Assembly: GCA_958510825.1 (NCBI GenBank)
Contig: OY294044.1
Span: 86,598,895-86,662,894, forward strand
Direction of reading: 5' to 3'
Source of the DNA: Brachypterus glaber
Taxonomy: Eukaryota; Arthropoda; Insecta; Coleoptera; Kateretidae
Length of the DNA: 64,000 bases
Under the pieces are notes generated by a model. That model was not told where the DNA came from and did not search any database. It was given only the letters and a program-made list of their open reading frames with translations. Position numbers and translations under genes: made by a program. Each line of letters starts with the position of its first letter. Positions within the stretch are counted from its first letter, which is position 1. Below are positions 9,171 through 57,244 of the stretch, in pieces.

Positions 9171-9178
9171 TAAATCAA

Positions 9179-11427: not shown

Positions 11428-11434
11428 TACTCAC

Positions 11435-12234: not shown

Positions 12235-12314
12235 ATTTTTGAAATTACGTTACTTTATAATAGGGAAATGTAAAGTTTTGCGCATATTCTTAGTAGACAT
12301 AATATCTACTAAGT

Positions 12315-15099: not shown

Positions 15100-15203
15100 T
15101 AGATATCTAATATTCAGCAGTCTTATTTCCCTGTCCTAAAGGTTTCGCCCTATAGAGACGTTCTCAATCACACCGTATACTTAAGAAAAGCGGAATTGTA
15201 TAC

Positions 15204-15318
15204 TTTATTTGATATAATTATAGTTACAAAATGAAAGCCCAGTCCAAATTAAACCTAAATAAAGAATTTTAGACTAAAAGCTAGTGTATTAGTAATCATG
15301 CAACATATAGATTTCAAT
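15204..15318 (-). terminator. 3' UTR with AATAAA poly(A) signal of the giant-exon isoform
   Basis: The minus strand after the TGA at 15319-15321 carries AATAAA at 15209-15204, about 110 nt downstream. This is consistent with cleavage shortly afterwards and a transcript ending with the giant exon. The signal is seen in the sequence; its use is inferred. Confidence 0.55.
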
Positions 15319-18300
15319 TCAATCGAACACAATTTTCACCTTCTTAAGTTGTTTGTCGTCATCTGTCAAAGAACTGCACGCGTAACCTGGTTGGTGCTGC
15401 ATTTGGGGCCCTAGAGGAGGATTTGCGTGGTCTAGGATTAGGGTATGATCTACGAGTGGTTCGGACGCAAGGTAAGTACTCTTGTCTTTCCACCCTGCTA
15501 TTCTACCCGGTAAAGAATATATTCTGTATTCCGAAGTTGAACCGTTTTGAGATGGTGGTTTACCATCGGGACCGTTAGATGGACCTTTACCCGGTCCTTT
15601 AGAATCGCCATCTTTATCGCTGTCATGAGGCTTATTTTGTTTTAAATCGCTTGGCCCTTCATCTTTGTTTTGAACAAGGTTAAGTTGGTATTCTGCTTCA
15701 GCGTCATCATAAATGCATTTAGTTAACCAATAGGTATCGTCTATTACTAAGTTTGTTGCTAATTCATCATCTGATGAAGATACAGATGATGATTTTTTTG
15801 ATTTTTTAGGTGTAAATACGTCTGAAACTGCTGATATTATTGACCCGAAAACGTTCTTTTTCTTTTCAGATTTTGGAGTTTTTTCTTGCTTTTTAACATT
15901 TATTTTTTCTTCCTTTTCTTCTGGTTCATTTTCTTCAATTGATTTGAACAATACTGATTCTTCTTCTGGTGTTAATTCATTTAATTTTTCTTCTTTAACC
16001 TGAACCCTTGTAAACTCATCATCAGTTAAATCATCAGTTAATTTACGGTCTTCTTCTTTCTTGTGTTTCTTTGATTTTTTACCGTCTTTACTTTTTACCT
16101 TTGAAAATATGTTAGTAATGAAACTACCGTGTTTTTCTACTTCGGAAGTTTGATCGTTTGCAGTTTTTGGAGGGCCGCTTAAATTATCATTTGACGAGTT
16201 CATTCTTTCATTATGAATAAAATCTAAAATATCATGTCTTTTACTAGTAGTGACCGTTGTTTCTTGAGGTGGTAATTTAATTTCCAATATTTCTACAGGC
16301 AAAGCTTCAACGACAATTGCTTCACTAGATTTAACTTCTGGTGCTTCCAAAACTACTTCTTTTTCTTGCTTACTCTTCCTTTTCTTAGATTTCTTTTTAG
16401 AATCAATTTCATCAATCTTTTCAGCTTCTTCTTTATCTGAGTCCTTATCTTTAGAACCTTTAACTTTTTTTACTACCCAGTCTAATATCTTACTAGATTT
16501 CTTATCATCTTTTTTCTTTAATTTTTTATTATCCAGCTGTTCGGAAGTACTGGTCTGTGGTACAACATGACTAGTAGTTGTGATGTTTTGACAAGTTATG
16601 GGTTGGGAACTGGTGATGTTCATTGTGATTATTGTCTCAGTTAGTGTTCTTGGTTGTACAACTTCTTCGACTTGTACTGATTCTGTTTTAGTCTTTGTAA
16701 TATGAGCCCAACTCTTCATTGAGCTTATGTCTGACAATAAAGCTAATTCATCATCAGGTTTAACGTGTTCAACCTCCACAGGATACTCCATATCTGCGTG
16801 TTCTACTGAAGGTTTAACTTTTTCATCGACCCAAGTTGTTTGAGCCAAACTTTCGTGAGTCGTATTTTCGTTTTTAACTAAAGCATCCAACTCCAGTTTG
16901 ATTCTTTCAGCGGAAACATCTTTATTCGTTTGAACTCTATGATGCGATATTGGTGAAGATGATCTACTTCTTCCTGCAGCTATGTCGGCATAGGTATCTT
17001 TTGTCCATGGTGATAACTTTATAACTTCTCTTGTAAGCGTTTCAGTTGGAGCAGTGGCTTGTACAGTTTCCAAATATTTTTCTTTCTTGGATTTACGTTC
17101 ACCATTTGTTTTTGCTTCAGTAGTAGTTATAACTGTAGTAGTGGTAGTAATTGTTTTTGTCGTAGAATCTGAATCTTTAGTTAAATCGTTAGATTTAATT
17201 TCTAATTCTTCAGAAAACATAGCTGGTTGGTCCAAAATATCGAGAAATAAGTCTGATGTGGTGTCTAAGGGCAAACCTTTGTAATCAGTCTTCGGTTTCA
17301 CTTCAGATTCGATTTTGTTTGAAGCTACAGTGGCCCAAGCAGTAATGAAATTTGAATTTACAACTTTTTCATTATGAATGAAATCACTTGTAACTTCTTT
17401 TGGAGCAGCAAATATTTCAAGTTCTGCAGTATCTTTGATTTTTTCTTCTACTACTGAAGTAGGTTCTTGTTCAGTATCTCCTTCTTGGTGCTTATTTTTT
17501 TTCGGTTTCTTTTCTATATTATTGTCGTCTTGAAGAGGAGAATGGCCACTAACTTCTGTAGTTTTAATAACAGTTTTTTCTAGTTTTATAACAGGTGTTG
17601 ATAAAGGTTTTGCATCACTAGCGATATATGCCCAAGATGTCGGTTCCGTAGTTAATTTAACTGGTTTACTAGTTGTAGTTATTACAGTATCTACGTCAGT
17701 AAATTGTTGTTCGTTTACAATAAAGTCTGTAATATCATCTTTTGATACAATCAGCTCTTTACAAATGGATGGTTTATCATTCACTTCAATTTTGAAACTG
17801 GTTTCTTTTATGGGCGTTTCAGGAATATTGATTATTTCTTCAGTAACTATAAATGCAGGTTCTTTTTCCACAATATCTTCAAATTGTTTGTCTTTCCTTT
17901 TTTTGTCAGATATAACTGTCGTATCAGTGATTAATACATGTTTTGGCTTTTTAGTGTCTCCAGAATGCTTTTCTGTTGTTAAACGATCCGTCGCGAGTAT
18001 TTCAGTAGTAATTAAGTCCGATATCGCCAAAGAAACAGTTTCTTTTTGTGTCTTTTTAGTTGGCTTTCGCGAATCAGCTGTTGATTTAGGTTTATCTGGA
18101 ATATGTCTGATTTCCTCAGTTACAACAAATGCCGGCTTTTTTTCTTTGAGTTCCTCACGGTGTTTCTTATGTTTATTTTTCTTTGATTTCTTGTCTGGTT
18201 CAGAATCTGAGTCAATTGTAAGTTTTTCAACAGTTTCTGTAACCGTAATGATTTCTTGCGGTTTTGTTTGCGCAATTTCTTTTACGCTAAATGTGGGTTT

Positions 18301-21300
18301 CTGAGGTACTGCATTCTTTTCTGCTATAGATGCCCAAGATGAAGTTGTTACTGTAATACTTTCTACAGTTGGTTGTGTTACTGTTTCCGTTGTCACAATT
18401 GTGATAACGTCATTTGTTGATTTTTCGTTAGATATAAATTCTGTTATTAAATCTTTGTCAATTGGTTTTTCTTCAACTACAGGAACGGTCTCTTTTTGTG
18501 TCTTTTTAGTTGATATCAGTTTATCACGTTTTAATTTTGGTTCTTCTGGAATGTGCCTGATTTCCTCAGTTACAACAAATGCAGGCTTCGTTTCTTTTGG
18601 TTCCTCAGGGTGTTTCTTATGTTTATTTTTCTTATATTTCTTGTCTTGTTCACAATCTGACTCAACTGTAAGTTTTTCAACAGTTTCTTGCGGTTTTGGT
18701 TCTGCAATTTCTTTCATCTTAAATGTGGGATTCTGGGGTTCTGCATTCTTTCCTACTATAGTTGCCCAAGATGATGTTTTTACTGTAGTAATTTCTACAA
18801 TTGGCTGTGTTATTGTTTCCGTTGTTACAGTTTTTATAACGTCAGTCGTTGATTTTTCTTTAGCTAAGAATTCTGTTATTAAACCTTGGTCAGTTGGTTT
18901 TTCTTCAACTACAGGAACGTTTTCTTTTTGGGTTTTTTTAGTTGATTTTGGCATATCAGATTTTACTTTTGGTTCTTCTGGAATGTGCCTGATTTCCTCA
19001 GTTACAACAAATGCAGGCTTCGTTTCTTTTGGTTCCTCAGGGTGTTTCTTATGTTTCTTTTTCTTATATTTTTTTTCTTGTTCAGAATCTGACTCAACTG
19101 TAAGATTTTTAACAGTTTCTGCAACCGTAATGATTTCTTGCGGTTTTGGTTCCGCAACTTCTTTCACCTCAAATGTGTGTTTCTGAGGTTCTGCATTCTT
19201 TCCTGCTATAGTTGCCCAAGATGATGTTACTGTAGTAATTTCTTTAATTGGTTGTGTTACTGTTTCCGTTGTTACAGTTGTTATAACGTCAGTCGTTGAT
19301 TTTTCGTTAGCTATAAAATCTCTTATTAAATCTTTGTCAGTTGGTTTTTCTTCAACTACAGGAACGTTTTCTTTTTGTTTTTTTTTAGTTGATTTTGGCG
19401 TATTAGGTGTTAAGTTTGGTTCTTCTAGAATGTGCCTGATTTCCTCAGTTACAACAAATGTTGGCTTCGTTTCTTTGAGTTCCTCAGGGTGTTTCTTATG
19501 TTTCTTTTTCTTGTATTTTTTTTCTTGTTCAGAATCTGACTCAACTGTAAGTTTTTTAACAGTTTCTGTAACCGAAATGATTTCTTGTGGTTTTGTTTCC
19601 GCAATTTCTTTGACCTCAAATGTCGGTTTCTGGGGTTCTGCATTCTTTCCTGCTATAGTTGCCCAAGATGTTACTGTAGTAATTTCTTCAATTGGTTGTG
19701 TTACTGTTTCCGTTGTTACAGTTGTTATAACATCAGTCGTTGATTTTTCGTTAGCTAAAAATTCTGTTATTAAATCTTTGTCAATTGGTTTTTCTTCAAC
19801 TAACGAAACCGTCTCTTTTTGGGTCTTTTTAGTTGATATCGGTTTAAGAGGTTTTGGTTCATCTGAAATGTGTCTGATTTTCTCAGTTACAACGAATGCA
19901 GTTTTTGTTTCTTTTGGTTCCTCAGGATGTTTTTTATGTTTCTTTTTCTTAGATTTCTTGTCTTGTTCAGAATCGGACTCAACTGTAAGATTTTCAACAG
20001 TTTCCGCACCCGTAATGATTTCTTGCGGTTTTGGTTCCGCAATTTCTTTCACCTCAAATATGGGCTTCTGAGGTTCTGCATTCTTTTCTGATATAGTTGC
20101 CCAGGTTGATGTTACTGTAGTAATTTCTTTAATTGGTTGTGTTACTGTTTCCTTTGTTACAGTTTTAATAACGTCAGTCGTTGATTTTTCGTTAGCTATA
20201 AATGCTGTTATTAAATCTTTGTCAGTTGGTTTTTCTTCAACAAAAGGAACGTTTTCTTTTTGGGTTTTTTTAGTTGATTTTGGCGTATCAGGTTTTAATT
20301 TTTGTTCTTCTGGAATGTGCCTGATTTCCTCAGTTACAACGAATGCAGGTTTTGTTTCTTTTGGTTCCTCAGGATGTTTTTTATGTTTCTTTTTCTTAGA
20401 TTTCTTGTCTAGTTCAGAATCTGACTCAACTTTAAGCTTTTCAACAGTTTCTGCAACCATAATGATTTCTTGCGGTTTTGGTTCAGCAAATTCTTTCACT
20501 TCAAATGTGGGTTTCTGAGGTTCTGCATTCTTTCCTGCTATAGTTGCCCAGGACGATGTTACTGTAGTAATTTGTTTAACTGGTTTTATTACTGTTTCCG
20601 TTGTTACAGTTGTTATAACGTCAGTCGTTGATTTTTCGTTAGCTATAAATTCTGTTATTAAATCTTTGTCAGTTGGTTTTTCTTCAACTAGAGGAACGTT
20701 TTCTTTTTGGGTTTTTTTAGTTGATTTTGGCGTATCAGGTTTTAATTTTGGTTCTCCTGGAATATGCCTGATTTCCTCAGTTACAACAAATGCAGGTTTC
20801 GTTTCTTTTGGTTCCTCAGGGTGTTTCTTATTTTTCTTTTTCTTATATTTCTTTTCTTGTTCAAAATCTGACCCAACTGTAAGTTTTTCAACAGTTTCTG
20901 TAACCGTAATAATTTCTTGCGGTTTCGGTTCCGCAATTTCTTTCACCTGAAATGTGGGCTTCTGAGGTTCTGCATTCTTTTCTGATATAGTTGCCCAGGT
21001 TGATGTTACTGTAGTAATTTCTTTAATTGGTTGTGTTACTGTTTCCCTTGTTACAGTTTTTATAATGTCAGTCGTTGATTTTTCGTTAGCTATAAATTCT
21101 GTTATTAAATCTTTATCAGTTGGTTTTTCTTCAACTAAAGTAACGTTTTCTTTTTGGGTTTTTTTAGTTGATTTTGGCGTATCAGGTTTTAATTTTTGTT
21201 CTTCTGAAATGTGCCTGATTTCCTCAGTTACAACGAATGCAGGTTTTGTTTCTTTTGGTTCCTCAGGATGTTTTTTATGTTTCTTTTTCTTAGATTTCTT

Positions 21301-24300
21301 GTCTAGTTCAGAATCTGACTCAACTTTAAGCTTTTCAACAGTTGCTGCAACCATAATGATTTCTTGCGGTTTTGGTTCAGCAAATTCTTTCACCTCAAAT
21401 GTGGGTTTCTGAGGTTCTGCATTCTTTCCTGCTATAGTTGCCCAGGACGATGTTACTGTAGTAATTTGTTTAACTGGTTTTATTACTGTTTCCGTTGTTA
21501 CAGTTGTTATAACGTCAGTCGTTGATTTTTCGTTAGCTATAAATTCTGTTATTAAATCTTTGTCAGTTGGTTTTTCTTCAACTAAAGGAACGTTTTCTTT
21601 TTGGGTTTTTTTAGTTGATTTTGGCGTATCAGGTTTTAACTTTGGTTCTTCTGGAATATGCCTGATTTTCTCAGTTACAACAAATGCAGGTTTCGTTTCT
21701 TTTGGTTCCTCAGGGTGTTTCTTATTTTTCTTTTTCTTATATTTCTTTTCTTGTTCAAAATCTGACCCAACTGTAAGTTTTTCAACAGTTTCTGTAACCG
21801 TAATAATTTCTTGCGGTTTTGGTTCCGCAATTTCTTTCACCTCAAATATGGGTTTCTGGGGTTCTGCATTCTTTTCTATAGTTGCCAAAGATGATGTTGT
21901 TACTGTAGTAATTTTTACAATTGGTTGTGTTACTGTTTCCGTTGTTACATTTGTTATAACATCAGTCGTTGATTGTTCGTTAGCTATAAATTCTGTTATT
22001 AAATCTTTGTCAATTGGCTTTTCTTTAACTACCGGAACGGTCTCTTTTTGCGTCTTTTTATTTGATATCGGTGTAACAGGTTTTGGTTCATCTGAAATAT
22101 GTCTGATTTCCTCAGTTACAATGAATGCAGGTTTTGTTTCTTTTGGTTCCTCAGGATGTTTTTTATGTTTCTTTTTCTTAGATTTCTTGTCTAGTTCAGA
22201 ATCTGACTCAACTTTAAGCTTTTCAACAGTTTCTGCAAGCGTAGTGATTTCTTGCGGTTTTGGTTCAGCAAATTCTTTTACCTCAAATGTGGGTTTCTGA
22301 GGTTCTGCATTCTTTCCTGCTATAGTTGCCCAGGACGATGTTACTGTAGTAATTTCTTTAACTGGTTTTATTACTGTTTCCGTTGTTATAACGTCAGTCG
22401 TTGATTTTTCGTTAGCTATAAATTCTGTTATTAAATCTCTGTCAGTTGGTTTTTCTTCAAGTACAGGAACGTTTTCTTTTTGGGTTTTTTTAATTGATTT
22501 TAGCGTATTAGGTTTTATTTTTGGTTCTTCTGGAATGTGCCTGATTTCCTCAGTTACAACAAATGCAGGCTTCTTTTCTTTTGGTTCCTCAGGGTGTTTC
22601 TTATGCTTCTTTTTCTTATATTTCATTTCTTGTTCAGAATCTGACTCAACTGTAAGATTTTCAAAAGTTTCAGCAACCATAATAATTTCTTGCGGTTTTG
22701 GATCCGCAATTTCTTTCACGTCAGATGTGGGTTTCTGAGGTTCTGCATTCTTTCCTGCTATAGTTGCCCAGGACGATGTTACTGTAGTAATTTCTTTAAT
22801 TGGTTGTGTTACTGTTTCCGTTGTTACAGTTGTTATAACGTCAGTCGTTGATTTTTCCTTAACTATAAATTCTGTTATTAAAACTTTGTCATTTGGTTTT
22901 TCTTCAAGTATAGGAACGGTCTCTCTTTGAGTCTTTTTAGTTGATTTTGGCGTATTAGGTTTTAATTTTGGTTCATCTGAAATGTGTCTGATTTCCTCCG
23001 TTACAGTGAAAGCAGGTTTTGGTTCCTCAGGATGTTTCTTATGTTTCTTTTTCTTAGATTTCTTATCTTGTTCAAAATCAGACTCAGCTGTAAGTTTTTT
23101 AACAGTTTCTGTAACTGTAGTGATTTCTTGCGGTTTTTGTTTCGCAATTTCTTTTACCTCAAATGTAGGATTCTGTGGTTCTGCATGGTTTCCTGCTATA
23201 CTTGCCCAAGATGAGGTTGTTAATGTAGTAATTTCTTCAAGTGGTTGTGTTACTGTTTCCGTTGTTACAGTTATTGTAACGTCAGGCATTGATTTTTCGT
23301 TAGCTTTAAATTCTGTTATAAAATCATTGTCAATTGGTTTTTCTTCAACTACAGGAACGGTTTCTTTTTGGTTCTTTTTAGTTGATTTTGGCGTAGCAGG
23401 TTTTGGTTCATCTGAGATATGTCTGATTTCCTCAGTTACAATGAATTCCTCAGGATGTTTCTTATGTTCCTTTTTCGTAGATTTCTTGTCTTGTTCAGAA
23501 TCTGACTCAACTGTAAGTTTTTCAACAGTTTCTGTAACCGTGATGATTTCTTGCGGTTTTGGTTCCACAATTTCCTTTACTTCAAATGTGGGTTTTAGAG
23601 GTTCTACATTCTTTCCTGCTATAGTTGACCAAGATGATGTTGTGACTGTAGTAATTTTTACAATTGGTTGTGGTACTGTTTTCGTTGATACAGCTGTTAT
23701 AACATCAGTCGTTGGTTTTTCGTTAGCTATAAATTCTGTTATTAAATCTTTGCCAATTGGTTTTCCTTTAACTACCGGAACGGTCTCTTTTTGGGTCTTT
23801 TTAGTTGATATCGGCGTAACAGGTTTTGGTTCATCTAAAATGTGTCTGATTTCCTCAGTTACAACGAATGCAGGTTTTGTTTCTTTTGGTTCTTCAGGAT
23901 GTTTCTTTTTCTTAGATTTATTGCCTTGTTCAGTATCTAACTCAACTTTAAGATTTTCAACAGTTTTTGTAACCGTAATGATTTCTTGCGATTTTGGTTT
24001 TGCGATTCCTTTCACCTCAAATGTGGGTTTCTGAGGTTCTGCATTCTTGCCTGCTATAGTTGCCCAGGATGATGTTACTGTAGTAATTTCTTCAATTGGT
24101 TGTGTTACTGTTTCCATTGTTACAGTTGTTATAACATCAGTCTTTGATTTTTCGTTAGCTATAAATTCTGTTATTAAATCTTTGTCAATTGGTTTTTCTT
24201 TAACTGCCAGAACAGTCTCTTTTTGGGTCTTTTTAGTTGATATCGGCTTAACAGGTTTTGGTTCATCTAAAATGTGTCTGATTTCCTCAGTTACAATGAA

Positions 24301-27300
24301 TGGAAGTTTTGTTTCTTTTGGTTCCTCAGAATGTTTTTTATGCTTCTTTTTCTTAGATTTCTTGTCTTGTTCAGAATCCGACTCAACTGTAAGATTTTCA
24401 ACAGTTCCTGCAACCGTAATGATTTCTTGCGGTTTTGGTTCCGCAATTTCTTTCACCTCAAATGTGGGTTTCTGAGGTTCTACATTCTTTCCTGCTATAG
24501 TTGCCCAGGATGATGTTACTGTAGTAATTTCTTCAATTGGCTGTGTTACTGTTTCCGTTGTAACAGTTGCTATAACGTCAGTCGTTGATTTTTCGTTAGC
24601 TATAAATTCTGTTATTAAATCTTTGTCAATCGGTTTTTCTTCGACTACAGTAACGGTTTCTTTTTGGTTCTTTTTAGTTAATTCTGACATATCAGGTTTT
24701 AATTTAGGTTTATCTGACATATGTCTGATTTCCTCAGTTACAATAAATGCTGGTTTTGTTACTTTAAGTTCCTCAGAATGTTGTTTATGTTTCTTTTTCT
24801 TCGATTTTTTCTCTTGTTCAGAATCTAGTTCTACTGTAGACGTTTCAATAGTTTCACTAATAGTAATAGATTCTTGTGGTGTTGTTTCTTTAATCTCATT
24901 TACATTAAATACGGGCTTTTCAGTTTGTGCATTTTTTCCTGCTATACTTGCCCAAGATGAAGTTGTAACAACCTCAGCAGGCTGACAAACTATTTCCGTT
25001 ATTACAGTTTTATTACTAGCTGATTGCTCATTCGTTATAAAATCTGTTATTAAACTTTTAAAAGGTTGTTCTTCAACAGTAAATGGTTCTTTTTTGATAT
25101 CTTTGCTGGTTTTCTTAGATTTTTTATTTTTTGTAGAATCTTTCTCATTTGAAGTTTTCTCAACGGTTTTAGTTGTTTTAACTGTAGGTTTAGGTTCTAA
25201 AGCTGAAGTTTTTTGTGGCTGTGCATTTTTCTTTATAATATTTGCCCATGAAAAAGTACTACTGGTTTCTTCAACCGGCTTTGTTATTATAAGTTCTTCA
25301 ACCACTGGAATTATTTCTTCAGAAGATTTTATTACCACATCTTCTGTTCTTACCGTTTGCTCTTCATACCAATCAGTTGTTTCGGCGGGTTTTTGTTTTA
25401 CCCTCTTTTCTTTAGCCTTTATTGCTTTTTGGGGTTGTTCAACCGGTTTATTCTGTTCAATCGACTTCGTAATAGGTTTCTCAACTGATTTTGGCCTTGG
25501 TGATGGTTCCCTACTACCCAGAATACCAGCATAACTTTGAGACTTATCGTAAGGTTTAATAAAACGATCAGGTTCATCAACAACTAATATTTCTTCAGGT
25601 TCTTCTGGTTTCTCAATCTTTTCTTTTTGCGATTTTCTAGACTTATGTGAAGACTGCTTCTCATGTTTTTGGTCATCAGAAGTATCATCTGAAGATAACT
25701 CTTGTTTCGGAACAATTTCTGGTCTTTGTTTTGATCTAGATCTGGATCTTGTTCTTCTTACGGACTTGGGGATGATAAATCCATCACTATCAACTTCAGA
25801 TTCACTGTAATTTTGTTCAGATTTAGTCACAACTATTTCAATTTTAGGTTGATGTATAACTTTCTTTGTTTTTTCAACGACTGTGGTAATTGTACTTGTA
25901 TGTTCTGGAACATAAGAACCAACCACTTTAGCGTAAGTAGTACCACTATTTTGTATTTCATCCCATATGTTAATGATGGGTTCAGTTCCTTGAGGTTCTA
26001 CAATAGCTAGTAACTCAGGTTGTTGTAAAACACTTTCTATAGGGGTCTCATACTTTTCAATTACAGGTTTCTTTTCAACTTTCGGTTTATCTTTAGATTT
26101 GCTTACTTCTGGTTTTGGTTTCTCGACTGTTTTTACAGGTGGTATTTCTTCTTTTGGTTGCGGAAGTTTGGTACCAATTACGTTCGCCCAGGAAATAACA
26201 TTACTTGTAGATTCGGTGACACTACTAGTTTGAATTTCTGATATAACATTTTTAGGTAACAAACTTACCTCATGTAAAATATGAGATTCAGGTTCATGTA
26301 ACATTTCATTTACCCACTCGTTACTAACATGGTCTAAAGGTATTTCGATATTTTCATCGACATTATACACATTTTTTGGATAATTCCAAGATTGTGGTTC
26401 ATTGTAGGGTTCAGGTTCGGGTACGCATTCAACAAGCTGTATTTTAGGTTCGCTAACCGGTACGAATTCCGCCGCGTTCGGATTTAATCGCGATAGATCT
26501 GACTTTGGAATAAATTCTTTAGCACGCTCAAGGATAGCTACAAATTCGGATGGTTTTTCAATTTCAGTTCTTTCCCGAGATATAAATTCATTACTAGACG
26601 CTTCGGGTATTATATACGTAAGATTTTGGGGTATGAATTCAGGAGCCGTTGGGGTTAATGAGGATACTTGGATAATTGGACTAAAAACATCAGTAACCGT
26701 TGCTTCATTCGAAGCAATATATTCTTCGCGAGCAATTTCAATTTTAGGTTGATGTTCGATATTACTTTCTTTTACTTCGACTATTTTAATAACGGGTTCT
26801 TTATTTTGTGCGAAAGTTGTTTCAGTTTTTGTTGTTGTAACTGTTGTGGTTGTTGTTGTTAAATTTGTAACTTCAGGTTTTATTTCTTCAGAAATTTTTT
26901 CACTTGTAGATTCAGAGTTCTGGATTTGTTCTTTAGCCTTAAGTTCATAGTAAGCTGTCTCTGCCTCCATAAGGCTGGTCATATCGTAATCGTATGGTTG
27001 TTCAACATAAAGCTGTTCTTTAATTTCTTCAGTAACCATATCTTCTACGCCCTCTTTTAAAATTTCTTCTGAAGATTGGTTTTCGTAATATTTGGTTTCG
27101 TCATCTAACATTTGTATGATGTCGTATTTAAGCATGTCTTCCTGTATTAAAGGAACATTTGACTTTATTTCTATTTTTTTAGATTCTATATTAGCATTGT
27201 ATTTTTCAGATTCGATAAAATCTAATACAGTTTTTCTTGTTTCATCAGTAATTTGTGTCGTTTTCTCAGTGATTACAAATTCCTTTTCTTTTGATTCAGT

Positions 27301-30300
27301 TTTTTTGGTTGTCTTTTTCTCCGTTTCCTCATCAGATTTCACTAAAGGTTCGGTAGCGATTATATGAATAGTTTTAACCTCCTGAGGGAGAATTTCTACT
27401 TCTTCAGTCTGTAAAACTCGTGATTTTGGTATATCAATTACAGATTTTTCATTTGTAATGAAATCAGTTATCAAATCTTTATTGATAATATCAGTCTGTT
27501 CAACACTCTCTGTAACAACAAGAGGTTTATCCTTTCTTGCTTTTTTTATTGGTTTTTCTACGATATGTTTTATTTCTGCGTCAGAAATATGCCTAATTTC
27601 TTCAGTGACTATAAAAGCAGGTTTGGTTTCAGGTGTTTCGTCTTGTTGGGGATGCTTTTTCTTATGTTTCTTTTTCTTCGTCTTTTCTGGTTCAGAATCT
27701 ATTATCTTCACAATTTCAGTAGTGTTAGTAAATGTAACTACTTCTTGTGGTTCAGGTTCCTTAATTTCTTCTACCTTCATAGTGAATTCTTCAGGTTGTG
27801 AATTTTTACTGGCAATTGTCGCCCAAGAAGAAGTTGTAATTTCCTCTACAGGTTTTGCAATGGGTTCTTTAGTTACCAAGGGCACATCGGTTATAGATCT
27901 CTCATTTGTGATAAAATCAGCTATTAAATCTTTATTAACAATATCGGTTTGTTCAACAGTTTCAGTAACGGCAATATGTTTTTCTATCTCCTTTTTTCCT
28001 TTTTTAGGTAATATTTCTAAGATAGGTTTACTTTCATCTTGTTGATGATTCTTTTTCGTCTGCTGCTTTTTCTTCGTCTTTTCTGGTTCAGAATCTGTTA
28101 TCTCCACAGTTTTAGTAGTTAAAGTAATTGTAACTATTTCTTGTGGTTTAAGTTCCTTAACTTCTTGCGCCATGATTGTAAATTCTTCAGGTTGTGATTT
28201 TTTACTGGGAATTGTCGCCCAGGAGGAAGTTACAGTTGTAACTTCCTCTACAGGTTTTACAATGAGTTTTTTAGTAACCAAAGGCACATCGATTATAGAT
28301 CTTTCATTTGTGATAAAATCAGTTATCAAATTTTTATTAACAATGTCGATAGTTTCAGTAACAGCAATATACTTTTCTTTCTCCTTCTTATCTTTTTTGG
28401 TTGATTTTTCTAAGATAGGTTTAATTTTATCATCAGACATATGCCTAATTTCTTCAGTGGCTACAAAAGCAGGTTTAGTATCAGATGTTTCATCTTGCTG
28501 AGGATGCTTTTTCTTTTGATTTTTTTTATTTGACTTTTCTGGTTTAGAATCTGTTATCTCCACAGTGTCAGTAGTTTTAGTAATTGTAACTACTTCTTGT
28601 GGTTTAGGTTCCTTAATTTCTTGTGCCATCAAAGTAAATTCTTCAGGTTGTGATTTTTTACTGGCAATGGTCGCCCAAGAAGAAGTAATAGTTATAACTT
28701 CCTCTACAGTGGGTTCTTTAGTTATCAAAGGTACATCAGCTACGGATCTCTCATTTGTGATGAAATCAGTAATTAAATCTTTATTAACATAAGTCTGTTC
28801 AATAGTTTCAGTGACAACAACAGGTTTTTCTTTTTCCTTATTATCTTTTTTAGTTGGTTTTTCTATAAAAGGTTTGGTTTCTTCCTGAGTAATATACCTG
28901 ATTTCTTCAGTGACTATAAAAGCAGGTTTAGTTTCAGGTGTTTCATTTTGCTGAGGATGCTTTTTCTTCTGCTTCTTTTTCTTTGACTTTTCTGGTTCAG
29001 AATCTGTTATCTCCAGAGTTTCAGTAGTTTTAGAAATTGTAACTACTTCTTGTGGTTTAGGTTCCTTAATTTCTTGTGCCATCAAAGTAAATTCTTCAGG
29101 TTGTGATTTTTTACTGGCAATGGTCGCCCAAGAAGAAGTAATCGTTTTAACATACTCTACAGGTTTCCCAGTGAGTTCTTTAGTTACCAAAGGTACATCA
29201 GTTACGCATCTCTCATTTGTGATAAAATCAGTTATTGAATCTTTATTAACAATATCAGTCTGTTCAATAGTTTCAGTGAGAACAATAGGTATTTCTGTCT
29301 CCTTATTATCTATTTTAGTTGGTTTTTCTATAAAAGGTTTGGTTTCTTCCTGAGGAATATGCCTGATTTCTTCAGTGACTATAAAAGCAGGTTTAGTTTC
29401 AGGTGTTTCATCTTGCTGAGGATGCTTTTTCTTCTGCTTCTTTTTCTTTGACTTTTCTGGTTCAGAATCTGTTATCTCCAGAGTTTCAGTAGTTTTAGTA
29501 ATTGCAACTACTTCTTGTGGTTTGGGTTCCTTAATTTCTTGTGCCATCATTGTAAATTCTTCAAGTTGGGGTTTATTACTGGCAGTTGTCGCCCAAGAAG
29601 AAGTAACAGTTGTAATTTTCTCTACAGGTTTCCCAATGGATTCTTTAGTTACCAAACGTACATCAGGTACGGATCTCTCATTTGTGATAAAATCAGTTAT
29701 TAAATCTTTATTAACAATATCAGTCTGTTCAATAGTTTCAGTGAGAACAATAGGTGTTTCTGTCTCCTTATTATCTTTTTTAGTAGGTTTTTCTATAAAA
29801 GGTTTGGTTTCTTCCTGAGTAATATGCCTGATTTCTTCAGTGACTATAAAAGCAGGTTTAGTTTCAGGTGTTTCATCTTGCTGAAGTTGCTTTTTCTTCT
29901 GCTTCTTTTTCTTTGACTTTTCTGGTTCAGAATCTGCTATCTCCACAGTTTTAGTAGTTTTAGTAATTCTAACTACTTCTTGTGGTTTAGGTTCCTTAAT
30001 TTCTTGTGCTATCAAAGTAAATTCTTCAGGTTGTGATTTTTTACTGGCAATGGTCGCCCAAGAAGAAGTTATAGTTGTAACATCATTTACATGTTTCCCA
30101 ATGAGTTCTTTAGTTTCCAAACGTATATCAGTTACGGACCTCTCATTTGTGATTAAATCCTTATTAACATTATCAGTCTGTTCAATAGTTTCAGTGACAA
30201 AAATAGGTTTTTGTTTCTCATTTTTATCTATTTTAGTTGGTTTTTCTATAATAGGTTTGGTTTCTTCCCGAGGAATGTGCCTGATTTCTTCAGTGTCTAT

Positions 30301-33300
30301 AAAAGTAGGTTTAGTTTCAGGTGTTTCATCTTGTTCAGGATGCTTTTTCTTGTGCTTCTTTTTCTTTAAATTTTCTGGTTTAGAATCTGTTATCTCCACA
30401 GTGTCAGTAGTTTTAGGAATTCTAACTACTTCCTGTGGTTTGGGTTCCTTATTTTCTTGTGCCATCATTGTAAATTCTTCAAGTTGTGGTTTTTTACTGG
30501 CAATTGTCGCCCAAGAAGAAGTAACAGTTGTAATTTTCTCTACAGGTTTCCCAATGGATTCTTTAGTTACCAAAGGTACATCAGTTGCGGATCTCTCATT
30601 TGTGATAAAATCAGTTATTAAATCTTTATTAACAATACTAGTCCGTTCAATAGTTTCACTGACAACAATAGGTCTTTTTTTCTCCTTATTGTCTTTTTTT
30701 GTTGGTTTTTCTATAAAAGGTTTTGCTTCTTCCTGAGGAATATGCCTGATTTCTTCAGTGACTATAAAAGCAGGTTTATTTTCAAATGTTTCTTCGTTTT
30801 GCTGAGGATGCTTTTTCTTGTGCCTCTTTTTCTTTGCCTTTTCTGGTTCAGAATTTGTTATCTCCACATTTTCAGTAGTTTTCGTAATTAAAACTACTTC
30901 TTGTGGTTTAGGTTCCTTAGTTTCTTGTGCCATCAAGGTAAGTTTTTCAGGTTGTGAATTTTTACTGGCAATGGTCGCCCAAGAAGAATTAATAGTTGTA
31001 ACTTCCTCTACAGGTTTCCTGATAAGTTCTTTAGTTACCAAAGGTACATCGGTTACGGATCTCTCATTTTTAATAAAATCGGTTATTAAATTTGTATTAA
31101 CAATATTAGTATGTTCAATAGTTTCAGTGACAACAATAGGTTTTTCTTTCTCCTTTTTATCTTTTTTGGTTGGTTTTTCTATAATAGCTTTGGTTTTTTC
31201 CTGAGGAATATGCCTGATTTCTTCGGTGACTATAAAAGCAGGTATAGTTTCAGGTGTTTCATCTTTTTCAAGATCCGTTTTTTTGTGCTTCTTTTTCTTT
31301 GACTTTTCTGGTTCAGAATCTGTTATCTCCACAATTTCAGTAGTTTTAACTACTTCTTGTGGTTTGGGTTCTTTAATTTCTTGTGCCATCATAGTAAATT
31401 CTTCAGGTTGTGACTTTTTACTAGCAATGGTCGCCCAAGAAGAATTAATAGTTGTAACTTCCTCGACCAGTTTTTCAATGGGTTCTTTAGTTATCAAAGG
31501 TACGTCAGTTATGGATTTCTCATTTGTGATAAAATCAGTTATTAAATCTTTATTAACAATATCAGTCTGTTCAATAGTTTCAGTGTAACCAGTGGGTTTT
31601 TCTTTCTTCTTTTTATCTTTTTTAGTTGGTTTTTCTATAATAGGTTTGGTATCTTCCTGAGAAGTATGCCTGATTTCTTCAGTGACTATAAAAGCAGGTT
31701 TCGGTTCAGGTGTTTCATCTTGTTCTGGGTGCTTTTTCTTGTGCTTCTTTTTCTTTGACTTTTCTGGTTCAGAATCTCTTATCTCCACAGTTTCAGTTGT
31801 TTTACTAATTGTAACTACATCTTGTGGTTTAGGTTCCTTAATTTCTTGTGCCATCAAAGTAAATTCTTTAGGTTGTGACTTTTTACTGGCAATGGTCGCC
31901 CAAGAAGGAGTAATAGTTGTAACTTCCTTGACAAGTTTCCCAATGGGTTCTTTAGTTACCAAAGGTACATCAGTTATGGATTTCTCATTTGTAATAAAAT
32001 CAGTTATTAAATCTTTATTAAAAATATCAGTCTGTTCAACAGTTTCAGTAAGTGCTATATTTTTTTCCTTCTGCTTCTTTTCTTTTTTGGTTAATTTTTC
32101 TAACATAGGTTTTGTTTCTTCATCTGGGATATGCCTTATTTCTTCAGTTATTATAAAGGCAGATTTACTTTTAGGTGTTTCTTCATCTTTCTGAGGTTGA
32201 TTTTTCTTCTCCTTATTTTTCTTTGTCTTTTTTGGTTCAGAATCTGTTATCTCTACAATTTCAGAAGTTTTAGTAACCGTAACTACTTCTTGTAGCGTAG
32301 GTTCCTTAATTTCTTGCGCCATCAAAGTAAATTCTTCAGGTTTGGATATTTTACTGGTAATTGTCGCCCAAGAAGAAGTAATAGTTGTAACTTCCTCAAC
32401 AGGGTTTGCAATGGGTTTTTCAGTAACCAAAGGCACATCTATTATAGATCTCTCATTCATAATAAAATCAGTTAATAAATCTTTATTAATAATATCAGAT
32501 TTTTCAACAGTTTCAATAACAGGTATTTTTTTCTCCTTCTTAATTGGTTTTTCTAAGATAGATTTTATTTCTTTATCAGGAATTTGTCTGATTTCTTCCG
32601 TGACTATAAAAGCAGGCTTCGTTTCAGGTATTTTACCTTGCTGAGGATTCTTTTTCTTGTGCCTCTTCGTCTTTTCGGGTTCAGAATCTGTTATCTCTAC
32701 AATTTCAGTAGTTTTAGTAATCATAACTACTTCTTGTGGTTTAGGCACCTTAATTTCTTGTGTCATCAAAGTTAATTCTTCAGGTTGTGAATGTTTACTA
32801 GCAATTGTCGCCCAAGAAGAAGTAACAGTTGAAACTTCCTCCACAGGTTTCGCAATGAGTTCTTTAGTTATGCATCTCTCATTTGTGATAAAATCAGTTA
32901 ATAAATCTTTATTAACAGTGTGAGTCTGTTCAATAGTTTCAGTAAAAATAACAGGTTTTTCTTTTACATTTTTATCTTTTTTAGTTCGTTTTTCTACGAT
33001 AGGCATAATTTCTTTAATTTCTTCAGCGACTACAAAAGCAGGTTTACTTTCAGGTGTTTCTTTTTCTTGATCATGCTTCTTCTTCTGCTTCTTTTTCTTT
33101 GACTTTTCTTGTTCAGACTCTGATATCTTCACAATTTCAGTTATTTTAGTAACTGTAACCACTTCTTGTGTTTCAGGATTTTTAACTTCTTGTGCAATCA
33201 TAGTAAATTCTTCAGGTTGCTTGTTTTTACTAGCAATTGTCGCCCAAGAAGAAAGAACCGTTGTAGCTTCCTCTACAGGTTTTGCTGTGGGTTCATTAGT

Positions 33301-36300
33301 TATTGAAGGTACATCAGTTGTAGATTTCTTATTTGTAATAAAATCAGTTATTAAATGTTCATTAATAATGTCAGTATGTTCATCAGTTTTAGTATCAACC
33401 AGAGGTATTTCTTTCTCCTTTTTATCTTTTCTAGTTCGCTTCTCTACAATAGGTTTTATTACCACATCAGGAACATGTCTAATTTCTTCAGTGACTATAA
33501 AAGCAGGTTTAGTTTCAGGTGCTTCATCTTGTTGAGTGTGCTTCTTCTTGTGCTTCTTTTTCTTCGATTTTTCTGGTTCAGAAACTGATATCTCCACAAT
33601 TTCAGTTGTGTTATTTGTTGTTACTATTTCTTGCGCCTTAGGTTCCTTAACTCCTTTTGTTTTTTCAATAGGTACTTTTGCTTCATCAGGTTTAGCATTC
33701 TTTGAAGCAACTGAGGCCCATGAACTAGGTGGTACAATATTTCTTCGTTCTGTTACCGGCATGGGTTTAGTTTCAACTTGTGACTTTTCTTTTTCAATAA
33801 AGTCTGTAATCATATCTGTAAAAACAATATCTGTTTGGACATTTTCAATAACCAACTCTTCTTCAGATAGTTTTTTAGTTTTTTTGCTTCGGTTTGGAGC
33901 TTTAGGAATTTCTATTTCAGTTTTTATTTCTTCACTATGTTTCTCAGCTGGTTTTGTTATTTCAGGTATTTGTTGTATTTTTGCGCCTGGCACAAATTCT
34001 TTAGCATAAACGTTTGTACCAGCAATATTTTTAAAATCTGCAATATCTACAAAAGATTTTTCATTGGCAATAAATTCAGTTATATTTTGTGATATTATAT
34101 TGATGTCTTTAGATTTTGATTTATCTTGTACAGCATTTTTCTTGCTTGGTTTTTCATCAGAAATATGTATTATTTCTTCTGTTACAATAAATTCGGGTTC
34201 TTGTGTTATTGAATCTTCGACAGGCTTTTTATTTTTCTTCGATTTTTTATGAATTAATGAATCTGATTTAATAGTTTTTTCTTCTAAAGGTCTTTCTTTA
34301 ACAACGATATCTGAAGGTTTAGGTACTTGACTTTCTTCAACAGTGAACACGTTTTGTTCAGCATCATGCAATGATGAAGTTGTTTTAACTATGTAATTTC
34401 TCATATATTGTTCGTTTTTAATAAAATCGTTAATTACTTCTTTGGAAATGATTGGTTCTTCTTTATTTTCCTGTTTAGATTTTTCTGTAATGTTTAATGT
34501 TTCTTTTTCAGAAACTGTATAAGTTGCGAAATCCTCATTAGATATATTTGCCCACGAACTAGTCATTTTGTCACTGCTAACATTATTATTATCAGTAGTA
34601 CCTACTACTTCAACCTCTTCGTCTGAAAAAATCATTGGCTCATCCAAAATATCAATAAATGATGAAGTTGTAGAATCAATTGGCAAACCCTTGTAATCAA
34701 CCTTTTTAATTTCTTTAGTTTTTGGTAATTCTATTGGTGTATCTTCTGAAAAGACAATTTCAAAGGAATCCTTGTTTTTTTCTATTGTTTTTGTAATATC
34801 TTTAGGAGTTACAAATATAAACTCATCAGCTGTTACAGTATTTCCATCCAGTTCACGACTGGGATCTTCAGGATTTATAATGTGAGGTTTTTCTTCAAAA
34901 GAGACTGATTTAACATTTTTCTTCTTTTTAGGTACTTTTATTTCACGAGAATTGCTTCTGGGAGAGTACCTGTTTTCAGCTTCTTTTTTCAATTGGTCAA
35001 TAACACTTTTTTCTGTTTCATCGTCACTGATTTTTGGTTCATCTTTTTTGCTGTTAGATTTTGTTATTTCCTTTGAGTTTTCATTGTCTGGTATATGTAA
35101 AATTTCCTCAGTAATAATAAATGCAGGTTTAGGTTCTGTAATATCATCGTTATTTTTCTTTTTATGTTTATTTTTCTTAGATATTTTATCACTAGTTGTT
35201 ATTCCTTCAGTTATTTCTATAAGTTTATTTATATTTGTAGTATTAATCAGTATTTCTTCTTTATTTTTTAACTCTTTATTTTCATTTGGTTTAGCGTTTT
35301 TACTTGTTATACCAGCCCAAGATGTAGATATTTCGTTATTAATAAATTCCTGAGATGTGCTACCTGTTTCTGTTAAGATATCGACATTGGTTAAAGTTTC
35401 ACTGACATTTTTCTTCTCTTTGTCAGATAATACATTCATTACTTGGTCGAAATCATTTACTTCTAGCTCAAAGATGGAATTTTGTCGTGACAGTGGTGAC
35501 GTTTCGGTGACAGTATTTTCAACTTTTGAAACATTTAGGTTATTTATTTCATTTAGCGTTTCTTGATTTTGAATTAAAAATTCTAAAGGTATGCCTTGAC
35601 GTTTCTTCTTCTTTTGCATCTTTTCTTCAAATTGTTTGCAGACTTCTTGTTCTTCTTTACTCAAATCGGTTAATTTTGGTTTCTTTTTCGATTTATCTTT
35701 TATAGTTGTAATTTCTTTTGCTGGTCTTGGTTTCACTGAACCAAATATTACTTGCTCAAAATCTTCCGAGCTAAATTCTTGTTCATTTTTAACAAATTCG
35801 TCAGAAATATCTTCAGTAATCGTGGTTGTAGTAACGGAAGATATTTCAGTAGTAATATTTGATTCATTTTCAGAAAGAACAATAGGTTCATCTAAAATAT
35901 CTATAAATGAGCTTGTAGTACTATCAACTGGTAAACCTTTGTATTTAACTTTTTTATGTTCGGGTTCTTTAACTTCAGGTTCTTTAATTTCAGGTTTTTT
36001 AATTTCAGGTTCTTTAATTTCAAGTTTGTTAGTTTCAGGTTCAGAAGTTTTCTTTATTTTAGGCTCTACTTTTATTTCCTCATCTGATAAAACTATAGTT
36101 TGATCCAAAAGATCAATAAAGGACGTTGTGGTTTGATCGATAGGCAGACCTTTATATTCTACCTTCTTTACAGGCTCTTTAACTTTAACAATTTCTGGTT
36201 CCTCGTCAGAGAAAGTCATAGGCTCATCTAATATATCAATAAATGAGCTAGTTGTTTGATCAATTGGCAGACCTTTGTATTCAACTTTTTTAGGTTCGGG

Positions 36301-39300
36301 TTCTTTAATTTCAGGTTCTTTAATTTCAGGTTCTTTAATTTCAGGTTTTTTAATTTCAGGTTCTTTAATTTCAAGTTCTTTAATTTCAGGTTCACAAGTT
36401 TTCTTTATTTTAGGCTCTACTTTTATTTCCTCATCTGATAAAACTATAGTTTGATCCAAAAGATCAATAAAGGACGTTGTGGTTTGATCGATAGGAAGAC
36501 CTTTATATTCTACCTTCTTTACAGGCTCTTTAACTTTAATAATTTCTGGTTCCTCGTAAGAGAAAGTCATAGGCTCATCTAATATATCAATAAATGAGCT
36601 AGTTGTTTGATCAATTGGCAGACCTTTGTATTCAACTTTTTTAGGTTCGGGTTCTTTAATTTCAGGTTCTTTAATTTCAGGTTCTTTAATTTCAGGTTTT
36701 TTAATTTCAGGTTCTTTTTCTACCTTCTTTACAGGCTCTTTAACTTTAACAATTTCTGGTTCCTCGTCAGAGAAAGTCATAGGCTCATCTAATATATCAA
36801 TAAATGAGCTAGTTGTTTGATCAATTGGTAGACCTTTGTATTCAACTTTTTTAGGTTCGGGTTCTTTAATTTCAGGTTCTTTAATTTCAGGTTTTTTAAT
36901 TTCAGGTTCTTTAATTTCAAGTTCGTTAATTTCAGGTTCAGAAGTTTTCTTTATTTTAGGCTCTACTTTTATTTCCTCATCTGATAAAACTATAGTTTGA
37001 TCCAAAAGATCAATAAAGGACGTTGTGGTTTGATCGATAGGAAGACCTTTATATTCTACCTTCTTTACAGGCTCTTTAACTTTAACAATTTCTGGTTCCT
37101 CGTCAGAGAAAGTCATAGGCTCATCTAATATATCAATAAATGAGCTAGTTGTTTGATCAATTGGTAGACCTTTGTATTCAACTTTTTTAGGTTCAGATTC
37201 TTTAATTTCAGATTCCATAACTTCTGTAACATCGTCATCAGAGAATGTCAAAGGCTCGTCTAAAATATCAATAAACGAACTCGTAGTCTGATCAATGGGT
37301 AAACCTTTATATTCAATTTTAGTGACTACTTTTTCAGTAATAGGTAAAATGGGCGACTCTTTACTAATAATATTCTCATTTTGAATAGTAGAACTTGAAG
37401 TTATTAAATTTTGTGTGAGAATTGATGTTTCCTGGATCTTGGTTGAAGTATTTCGAGTTTGGGTAGTTATGCTTTCGTTTACGGTATGTTGTCCCTGAGT
37501 TGTAATAAAAGGTTCTTTTTCAAATTCCATTTTTAAAGATACGATAGGTTTCATTCTGATTTCTTCATGAGTTATTAAGGTTATTTTTGTTGTGCCATTT
37601 GATGTGGTAACTACAGGTTTAAATTCAGTTGTAGTAATTTCTTTATTTTCTTCTGATCTTGTTTTTATATTGCTAATATTAACATTCCCAGATATTGCTG
37701 TGGTTGTCGATTCTTGAGTCATAATTGGTTTTGAAGACGAAGTATTTGTTGAAACGGTTTCAATAATTGGTGCGTTTTTCGATACACTTGTAGTGATAGT
37801 AGTTGTTGTTTTGGTACGTTTTAAAGATTCATCCCCTTGAGTAACTGTGCTGTCATCAGAAGTAGTTTTTACTTTAGAAAACTTTTTAGGTTTTAAAGGT
37901 AGTTCTTTGGGTTCTTCATCAGGAATATGTCTGATAACTTCCGTAATTGTGAATTCAGGCTCATGTTCTAATGGTTTTATAGGAGTCTTCTTCTTTTGTT
38001 TCCTTTTCTTAGATTTCTTATCTTCAGTTTCATTTTCGTCTGATAAATTTAACTGTTTTTCTGTTATAATAACCTTACTAAATTCTTCAGTAACTTGCTC
38101 TACCGGCTTCTTAGTAACTTCTAAAATTGGTATGCCTGGTTTTGCATTTTTACTAGTTATACTAGCCCATGTGCCAGTAGTATTAATGGCTTCTGCTGCA
38201 GTTGTTGTGTCTGATTTTTGAGTTTTTTCTTTGGCAGGAATTATATCCAAAGTTGACTTCTCATTTTCAATAAAATTTTGTATAGATTTAATATCGATTT
38301 CTGGTGGAGTACTTTCCCCTTCAACAGTAGTTTCTGGGTGCTTAGATTTCTTGTTTTTGCGAGCTTGTGGTTTGGGTTTATGGTTATCATCGGGAATTTT
38401 CCGAATTTCTTCTGTGGCAATAATGACTTCCTGTTTTTCAACGGGTATTTTTATGAGTGTTTTTGACTGAGTAGTATCTCTTTCTTTAGGTTTTTCTGAT
38501 TCTGATTTGAATGTTTTTCCGGCAATATTTTCCCAGGAACTTGAAGTGGTTGTAATAGTTTCAGTTTCACGTTTTAATGGTTCCTCCTTTTGAACAGGTT
38601 TTACTTTCTCTTGCTTTTGTTCATGATCTAATACAACAGACTTCTCGTGGTGTATAAATGTATTTAGAATGTGACTTGTTGGTACAGCAGAAATTAGGTT
38701 AACTTTTTCTAGGTTTTCTATTGGTTCTTTCTTTATATCAGATACTGTTTTAGTACTTGTTGTGTTTGTAGTAATGTTTGTTGTTTTATTTTCATCAGGA
38801 ATATGCCTGATTTCTTCTGTTACTACAAAAGCAGGTTCATATCTTTCTGGCTCGGGTTTCTTTTTAGGTTTCTTCTTTTTCTTCTTACTTTCTTCATCAT
38901 TAGGTGTACTAGATTTCTCTTCTACATCAGGTATTTTTTCAACAGATTCTGACCGGTTAAAAACTGTTTCTTTTGGCACTTTTTCTTCTGGTTTGGAATG
39001 TTTACCAGCAATATTGGCCCAAGAACTTGTAGTGGTTGTAATAGTTTCGGTTATAATTTGAACACTTGGTTCTTGTGAAGTAGTTATAACAATAGTTTCA
39101 TCTGCCTTTGGTGATATAGAAATTTCTTCAGTAAATTCAAAGATTGGTTTTTCTTTTGTTTCTTTCTTCTTATCTTTCTTTTTGTTGGACTTTTCAGATT
39201 TTAAGGGTTCTTGTTTTTGTTTAGTATCTTCTTGCTTTTCTTCATGTGCTAAAGCAACAACCTTTTCGTGATGTATAAATGTATTTAGAATATCGCTTGT

Positions 39301-44076: not shown

Positions 44077-44229
44077 CTGTTTACGTAGCAACAATGCAAA
44101 ATATCAGTATCGCGCAATAATAAAAAGAGAAACGCGCATATATGGTGACTGAAACGCGCGTCATGGTCCTAATTAAGGGTTTAAGGTCAAGATCGGTGTT
44201 TTTGGAGGTGAAGGTGGTCGAGAATGGAA

Positions 44230-50089: not shown

Positions 50090-50350
50090 CTGTTGTTCGC
50101 TAAGCGCCTGGTCTCGATCGTGGGGCAAATATGTGGGGGCCATAGTGCTACGGAGATGCTGCTCGACCTGGACGATCTGCTGGCGAAGCTGCTGGACCTC
50201 CAGCTGGTAGTGCTCGACCTGGGCAATGGCTGTTTCGAGCTGGTGGCTTTGCTCCTTGATGCTGGTGTTTAGATCGTCTAGTTCTTTTAGAAGTTCCTCG
50301 GCTGTTTGGGTAACTCGGCTATCGCCGCCGACGCCGGAGCGGAAATGGAG
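50090..50350 (-). CDS. Msp300: Spectrin-repeat exon immediately upstream of the giant exon
   Basis: 261 bp, 87 codons, bounded by acceptor …GACTTTCCAG and donor GTAGGG, phase 0 at both ends. The peptide begins LHFRSGVGGDSR, then a long coiled coil (EELLKELDDLNTSIKEQSHQ, QLEVQQLRQQIVQVEQHLRS) and ends YLPHDRDQALSEQQ. It is clearly GC-richer than the introns. The heptads and the loop before the last helix fit a spectrin repeat of nesprin type. From here the transcript can join the giant exon (44076), the alternative exon (44340) or the downstream exon (11542), all in phase. Confidence 0.85.
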
Positions 50351-51111
50351 CTGGAAAGTCAGTGAATCGTAGTCACTTTTACGTATAAACCGACGGTTTT
50401 TCGCGTAAAAAAAAAGGTTTTTTGCATATAAAATGAATTTCCAGTAAAATAAATATATATTTTTTTCTAACGCAAGACTTAATTTTTACCTGTCCATTCT
50501 ACAGTAACTAGGTATTTTGAAAAAATATTTTAACAAGATTTTAGGTACTATCCAGTTTTTTTTTTAATACGTTGGACCTGCATATGCATATAAAAAAAAC
50601 TGTATTTATTTATTATATTTATAAAAAAAAACGATATTATAGATATAACTATACTACTCTGCCACCATAGCTTAAAATAACGTATTAGTCTTTATCATAG
50701 GAGGCCCTGAAAAACCAAAATTAGACAACTAGGGTCCCAGATTTTTTAAGTAAATGTTTAAGAACCCTGTAGATGCGCCTTCGCCAAAGTTGTAAATTAT
50801 TTTGCTTTCCCATTTTGAAAATTTTCAAAATTTCGGAAGGCCTTTTTTTAAAGTTAATTATGGAAAACAAAATTTAATTTATAAACTTTAAAAATATTAA
50901 ATAAAGTTCATAAAATACGCAATGCGGCATAAAAATAATATCTTTTGAATTAAATGAATTATAATTATTAGCGCTTTAAATAACATAAAATCACGAAACA
51001 TTCATTATAAATTATAATTATCTTTTTATCAATTTTAATTTAAAATTACTCTTTTAAAACTAATATAAATGAAGAAATTCTTGATCCTTACTCATATTGG
51101 AGTTGATTTAA
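50351..51111. other. Intron
   Basis: AT-rich; no exon or clear element seen. Confidence 0.5.
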
Positions 51112-57136: not shown

Positions 57137-57244
57137 AATACAACCTAATGCATAGTAATAATTCTTTCTATATTTGCTTAACTTTACAAAGTCATTTTGC
57201 TACTTAGTTAACGGAAAAAAATTTCAACTGACTTAATAACTTAC

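Follow-up and report, generated by a model that had tools for sequence, protein, structure and literature searches.

A giant open frame and its likely gene

The window analysed here, a 64,000-nucleotide stretch of the genome of the beetle Brachypterus glaber (contig OY294044.1), holds on its minus strand a single open frame of 9594 codons plus stop (Table 1), which looks coding both from its freedom from stops over that length and from a median dN/dS of 0.41 among its repeat units. A sequence-only reading of the same DNA had placed three peptides of common spacing within 67 residues of a giant exon, and they are indeed there: positions 26458–26658 of the minus strand translate, in the giant frame, to exactly 67 residues that start with LTPTAPEFIP, contain ILERAKEFIP and finish on LNPNAAEFVP (hereafter peptides A, B and C, respectively). 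At its 5′ end the frame offers a phase-0 acceptor (TAAACAG/ACAAGA), from which the exon would start at 44076; its 3′ end (15319–15500, minus strand) is free of repeats and closes with a stop codon (...LKKVKIVFD, then stop); this tail could be a genuine C-terminus, from an isoform without KASH, or else a splice donor zone.

Upstream on the same strand, a coiled-coil-like ORF ends in a donor of matching phase, and the predicted junction (50090 to 44076) reads in frame, with ...LSEQQ followed by TRIQAYQQRI...; intervening exons are possible. Further upstream still, a second ORF matches the spectrin-repeat family PF00435 above its cut-off when scanned alone—a match that depends on the length submitted, falling to 28.0 bits within a 367-aa stretch and being unlisted, at E up to 0.1, in the 3333-aa read-through frame that holds the ORF. 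Two nesprin models score below threshold: Spectrin_SYNE1 (PF25034; 21.7 bits, cut-off 35) at this same ORF, and ANC1_spectrin (PF24531; 19.4–19.9 bits, cut-off 27) at 59039–59554. In the PDB the spectrin ORF matched 15 sequences at E up to 1, led by chemotaxis proteins of bacteria (5.2e-05); we judged this to be a coiled-coil likeness and set it aside. CH and KASH domains were listed neither in the minus-strand frames of 5402–15402 and 44104–64000 nor in the giant ORF, and could lie outside the window.

We consider it likely, if not proven, that the giant exon belongs to a nesprin-like protein. This assignment, already made in the sequence-only reading, gains from the same-strand spectrin-repeat ORF and from the phase-matched splice signals leading out of the coiled-coil-like ORF; it loses from the weaker spectrin match in the longer stretch, the sub-threshold scores of the nesprin models and the absence of CH and KASH from the parts scanned. 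The dependence of the spectrin match on scanned length led us to lower our confidence slightly.

Directly adjoining the spectrin ORF are retrotransposon-like ORFs (54176–57199, minus strand; reverse transcriptase PF00078, 121 bits), by our reading of the non-LTR type. Elsewhere in the window there is a tRNA-Ala (AGC) gene (9763–9835, minus strand), called by both Rfam and ARAGORN, and, at 1773–2141, a group of plus-strand ORFs that overlap across three frames and repeat strings of the EELWRNSGGT/RNSLQNGGTL type, which suggests a tandem repeat that is short and degenerate.

Table 1. Coordinates of the giant open frame, its component segments and the ORFs upstream of it (positions in the window)
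Feature	Position	Strand	Basis
Spectrin-repeat ORF	57236..57646	-	PF00435, 31.8 bits scanned alone (cut-off 29.9)
Upstream coiled-coil-like ORF	50090..50485	-	Splice signal (donor CAG/GTAGGG, phase 0); no spectrin match
Giant open frame	15319..44103	-	Coding part probably from 44076, after AG acceptor
Block with 9 of the ORF's 11 KGLP[IVL]D repeats (YKGLPIDQTTSSFIDILDEP type)	35704..37503	-	Pattern matches; analyst-set range
Peptide D, AGTNVYAKEFVP (also given as AGTNVYAKEFVPG), PAM2-like without leucine	33988..34023	-	6/7 features
Tandem array 1, ~150-aa units with SSWATIASK, KPAFIVTEEIRHIP and DLITDFITNE blocks	27424..33753	-	Repeat patterns; analyst-set range
Unique non-repeat spacer holding A–C, between the two tandem arrays	25264..27423	-	Bracketed by repeat anchors; boundaries set by analyst
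Peptide A, SSLTPTAPEFIP, near-canonical PAM2, Thr for Asn/Ser at position 4	26629..26664	-	6/7 features
Peptide B, VAILERAKEFIP, degenerate PAM2-like (Ile 3, Leu 4, Glu 5)	26506..26541	-	5/7 features
Peptide C, SRLNPNAAEFVP, canonical PAM2 by sequence	26458..26493	-	7/7 features; PF07145 above cut-off
Tandem array 2, unit plan of array 1 (SSWATIAGKNAEPQKPTFEVKE...)	18004..25263	-	Repeat patterns; analyst-set range

Tandem arrays and the spacer between them

The giant ORF consists largely of tandem units of ~150 aa, marked by SSWATIA[SG]K, KPAF[IV]VTEEIRHI and DLIT[DE]FI.NE blocks; pattern counts over the ORF come to 45 for a loose SWA expression, 34 for TEEI, 31 for DFI and 11 for KGLP[IVL]D. 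The last of these is a second repeat family of the giant exon, mostly gathered in one block (Table 1), with single copies near 34690 and 17280 and EIKEPEIK spacers accompanying some. Copies of [STG]WAx[IV] number 38 (25 of them SWAxIA), mostly followed by [SG]K; they are found in both arrays and scattered to ~41300, and Tyr versions (SYADIAAGRS, TYAKVVGS, SYAGILGS) occur outside the arrays. The SWAxIA repeat may resemble SWAxIxSK-like stretches of the mRNP proteins YTHDF and G3BP, a likeness that we treat as a lead; among the matches listed by a literature text search for SWAxIA-like strings, all looked unrelated.

For estimates of dN/dS, 39 anchors were used to delimit repeat units, of which 24, measuring 125–175 aa, were aligned (14 other intervals being dropped), and 181 of the 276 unit pairs were kept after a saturation filter. 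Median dS over the 181 pairs is 0.34, alongside the median dN/dS given above, with a few pairs lying near a dN/dS of 1 (0.98, 0.99). In the three cross-array pairs for which values were output, dS is 1.89–1.99, and each array therefore looks to have been homogenised on its own.

The PAM2 stretch between the arrays has a Lys+Glu fraction of 0.18 versus 0.30–0.31 for the arrays, and a hydrophobic fraction of 0.33 versus 0.23 in array 2 and 0.25 in array 1. Read from its composition, the long, repeat-rich giant-exon insert is probably disordered. At E up to 1, Pfam lists only PAM2 and Coat_F in the giant ORF, and no RNA-binding or translation domain. Coat_F, a bacterial spore coat family with a cut-off of 25.7 bits, scores 63 bits on the second half of the ORF; since the match falls within array 2, we rejected it as a likeness probably driven by the repeats.

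PAM2-like peptides of unequal quality

In the solved complexes described in PMC2854688, Leu3 and Phe10 of PAM2 fill two pockets of the MLLE domain, Ala7 packs on an MLLE methionine and Pro12 makes an extra contact. That source defines position 3 as Leu, or occasionally Pro or Phe, with Ala7 and Phe10 invariant, Glu9 preferred and Pro12 usual. Following it, we scored seven features (a hydrophobic residue at position 3, Asn/Ser at 4, Pro/Val/Thr at 5, Ala7, Glu9, Phe10 and Pro12), making Ala7 and Phe10 obligatory and widening the choice at position 3 to take in Ile, Val and Met. The Pfam PAM2 model PF07145, with its gathering cut-off of 20 bits, was applied alongside.

Only four A-x-E-F-x-P strings exist in the giant ORF: peptides A, B and C, and a further PAM2-like peptide, D, missing from the sequence-only reading, whose three motifs are real but not the full set. 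One more string in the ORF scores 4/7. B and C are 4 residues apart, A lies 29 residues before B, and D some 2,440 residues before A. Ala7, Glu9, Phe10 and Pro12 are present in all four. Position 3 is Leu in C and A, Ile in B and Thr in D, where the feature is unmet; C and D have both position 4 (Asn/Ser) and position 5 (Pro/Val/Thr), A has Pro5 without position 4, and B has neither, dropping to 4/7 under a strict reading of position 3 (Leu/Pro/Phe). Against PF07145, C scores 26.8 bits in a 24-aa piece and 22.0 bits (E 1.1e-4) within the 4794-aa second half of the ORF. In 30-aa pieces A reaches 12.8 bits and D 14.8 bits, both below the cut-off; no family is listed for D in a scan of the 4800-aa first half of the ORF at E up to 1, nor for B at E up to 10. 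The human ATXN2 and PAIP1 peptides scored 33.6 and 29.7 bits, respectively, in the run on these short pieces.

By these sequence measures we class the four as one canonical PAM2 (C), one near-canonical (A) and two weak look-alikes (B and D). The earlier description of LNPNAAEFVP as close to canonical PAM2 is thus upheld, by all seven features and by an independent curated model. The companion claim, that all three are PABP ligands, is not supported: C is canonical and A near-canonical, but the motifs are not alike, B being without the Asn/Ser and Pro/Val/Thr positions and unlisted by Pfam, and C alone passing the Pfam cut-off. The earlier interpretation taken as a whole is supported in part.

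This inequality bears on a plausible, if tentative, reading that overlaps with the one we prefer (PABP docking by peptide C; see below), namely that C alone is a ligand, making the protein a single-site PABP recruiter and no multivalent anchor. Pfam passes C only, the Leu and Phe pockets are described as dominating binding (PMC2854688, PMC11166328), and the first half of the motif is broken or weakened in B and D; on the other hand, A retains Leu3, Pro5, Ala7, Glu9, Phe10 and Pro12, and the single sites of eRF3 are given affinities of 3.9 and 3.1 uM despite the leucine-less form of its PAM2-C (PMC2854688). For D the eRF3 precedent is of limited reach, since in PAM2-C a position-1 Phe helps binding and stands in for the leucine, a residue that D does not have. 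D is further disfavoured as a ligand by the fall in affinity of about three orders of magnitude reported for Paip2 without its Leu (PMC2854688), and by human ATXN2, in which mutation of either L914 or F921 is described as preventing PABP binding (PMC11166328).

Composition does not account for the A-B-C cluster. The expression [LIVMF]xxxAxEF[VI]P matches three times in the ORF, a number reached in 0 of 2000 ORF shuffles (mean 0.0010). Three peptides score at least 6 (A, C and D), against 0.0125 expected per ORF from a global shuffle (2000 runs), 0.019 from a 300-aa block shuffle (2000) and 0.014 from a first-order Markov model (1000). Three matches of at least 5 within 75 aa were produced by none of these (0/2000, 0/2000 and 0/1000, respectively), nor by 10000 shuffles of the 640-aa spacer segment alone, and a 7/7 match arose in 0/2000 global shuffles and 0/1000 Markov sequences, with a mean of 0.0005 per block shuffle. 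Beyond the frame of the ORF, the window's remaining five frames contain three matches of at least 5; these occur together in a single plus-strand frame, and each lacks Glu9 and Pro12. A looser PAM2 expression, of the ELM kind, matches C alone, as often as is seen in 13 of 2000 shuffles. As these null models probe composition only, and not conservation, their outcome speaks against composition as the cause of the cluster rather than for a function.

Nor do A, B and C look like recent copies of each other: their pairwise nucleotide identity is 13–23 of 36, and of the 4–7 residues that each pair has in common only 1–3 use the same codon (2/5, 3/7 and 1/4), so that codons differ at most common residues. 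B and D, by comparison, share the codon at 5/5 common residues, which may be codon bias or relatedness.

Against this background, it seems doubtful that the peptides are a chance or relic resemblance in a fast-changing disordered linker, with nothing bound. For such a resemblance speak the sub-threshold score of A and the unlisted status of B among the three reported peptides, the choice of PAM2 from many possible motif classes and the lack of relatives in the collections searched, which we suspect to be without insects. Against it speak the threefold occurrence of scores of at least 6 where at most 0.019 is expected, the rarity of a 7/7 match in the three ORF-wide null models, and a Poisson tail for three matches of at least 6 that stays at 1e-4 to 3e-4 when penalised for an assumed 300 motif classes. 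Regular expressions for eIF4E, LC8, G3BP, GYF, DDX6, SIM, EB1, EVH1, kinesin and 14-3-3 ligands also gave some matches (among them 2 eIF4E-type, 6 SIM-type and 5 14-3-3-type), on which we place no weight.

As for relatives, searches of a protein database returned 1876, at least 7993 and 2016 word-sharing candidates, none of which passed E thresholds of 0.001, 1 and 1, respectively; 30 matched stretches in genome_contigs and 5 in viral_contigs yielded none confirmed as a relative, and a PDB sequence search with the 100-aa PAM2 stretch gave no match up to E 10. We read the missing relatives as a matter of collections that we suspect hold no insects, and not as evidence about the motif. In the collection of papers searched, none combines Msp300 with PAM2 and two combine nesprin with PAM2; one of the two, a study of Atxn2 mice (PMC13115098), describes SYNE1 changes and, in the portion available, reports no PAM2 in a nesprin. 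PAM2 itself is a known motif; the novelty lies in the kind of protein that carries it.

Proposed PABP docking and comparison with known systems

With modest confidence, and from the sequence of the motif, we propose that peptide C is a docking site for cytoplasmic PABP, engaging the MLLE domain of the latter and tying poly(A) mRNPs to a nesprin-like giant protein. The giant exon would then be a probably disordered, repeat-rich insert of that protein, offering a PAM2 docking site between two large tandem arrays; PABP seated on poly(A) tails would be held by C and so tethered to the giant isoform, and polyadenylated mRNPs would be retained on, or carried along, filaments, with B and D at most adding weak sites. 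We favour this reading because C carries every residue singled out by the structures and passes PF07145 with a score close to those of the two human peptides, because scores of at least 6 are in excess and all but one of the PAM2-like peptides lie in a cluster, because A, B and C do not look like recent copies and the frame looks coding, and because fly Atx2, whose pull-down of PABP is reported to require PAM2 and its Phe (PMC11166328), provides an insect precedent for the mechanism. It is weakened by the scores of A and D below the Pfam cut-off, with B unlisted; by the want of a relative in the searches made; by the repeat pairs with dN/dS near 1 and the codons shared by B and D; and by the fact that sequence can mislead, since a TOB1 PAM2 peptide is described as recovering less PABPC1 and a PAN3 peptide none, with the key residues present in both (PMC5118804). 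Quoted PAM2–MLLE affinities span 0.2–40 uM (PMC9249222). Real PAM2 sites may also be dispensable: Upa2 is reported to retain mRNA transport without them (PMC9249222), and LARP4B and HELZ are reported to retain their tested functions.

A second MLLE partner, with the cluster docking the MLLE domain of the E3 ligase Hyd/UBR5, in place of PABP or alongside it, and serving turnover of the giant isoform, is very improbable: the UBR5 MLLE is reported to bind the PAIP PAM2 at 3.4 uM, so that a canonical PAM2 can serve both (PMC9249222), and degenerate sites such as B might, speculatively, suit a laxer MLLE, but the PAM2-like sequence of the UBR5 HECT domain is given as acidic and of altered spacing (PMC9249222), C has the PABP-type LNxxAxEFxP form (PMC7356810), and no pointer to ubiquitin biology was seen within the window.

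Docking of PABP by peptide C would, if real, give a LINC-complex giant a direct molecular handle on mRNAs, and supply a first binding function within a giant exon, the repeats of which otherwise have no explanation. The link of Msp300 to mRNA localisation, invoked by the sequence-only reading, is borne out by a review (PMC6416162), according to which Msp300 mutants lose localisation of par-6 and magi mRNAs at the fly NMJ; the role described is in mRNA transport, not export or stability, and the motor Myo31DF is put forward as the partner of Msp300, the physical link from Msp300 to these mRNAs going unnamed in the portion of the review drawn on here. A broader proposal, which we regard as unlikely, is that insect nesprins, in their giant-exon isoforms, form filaments that dock PABP multivalently: several PAM2 sites of graded affinity, placed in a spacer that separates two homogenised repeat arrays, would gather poly(A)-tailed mRNPs on tracks that run from nuclear envelope to synapse. 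Were it true, it would supply the physical link that is missing from mRNA localisation by Msp300. As PF07145 already fires on C, automated annotation of such proteins may carry an unnoticed PAM2 domain.

Set beside established PAM2 proteins (Paip1/2, ataxin-2, eRF3 and HELZ), peptide C fits both LNxxAxEFxP (PMC7356810) and PF07145 and is likewise embedded in a stretch whose composition looks disordered; the host differs, being a giant, repeat-rich and probably cytoskeletal polypeptide. The tandem PAM2 of eRF3/GSPT1 offers a parallel for neighbouring PAM2-type sites and for a leucine-less form among them (PAM2-C there, D here). The two eRF3 sites, however, are described as overlapping, sharing one Phe and binding 1:1 (PMC2854688), whereas A–D are separate, so that multivalency is possible in principle.

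We know of no relation between the giant-exon protein and the Upa1 and Upa2 proteins of Ustilago, scaffolds whose PAM2 motifs likewise connect PABP-mRNPs with a track for transport. Four such motifs are described in Upa2 (PMC9249222), and the system differs in being endosomal and fungal, and in that Upa2 transport is reported intact with all four PAM2 mutated (PMC9249222). A further setting is that of Drosophila Msp300/nesprin-1, to which the present gene is tentatively likened and from which it differs in showing no CH or KASH in the parts scanned; common to both are great length, with fly products reaching 13,540 aa (PMC11213522), and an architecture in which, here, spectrin-repeat and coiled-coil-like ORFs lie upstream of the giant exon on the same strand.
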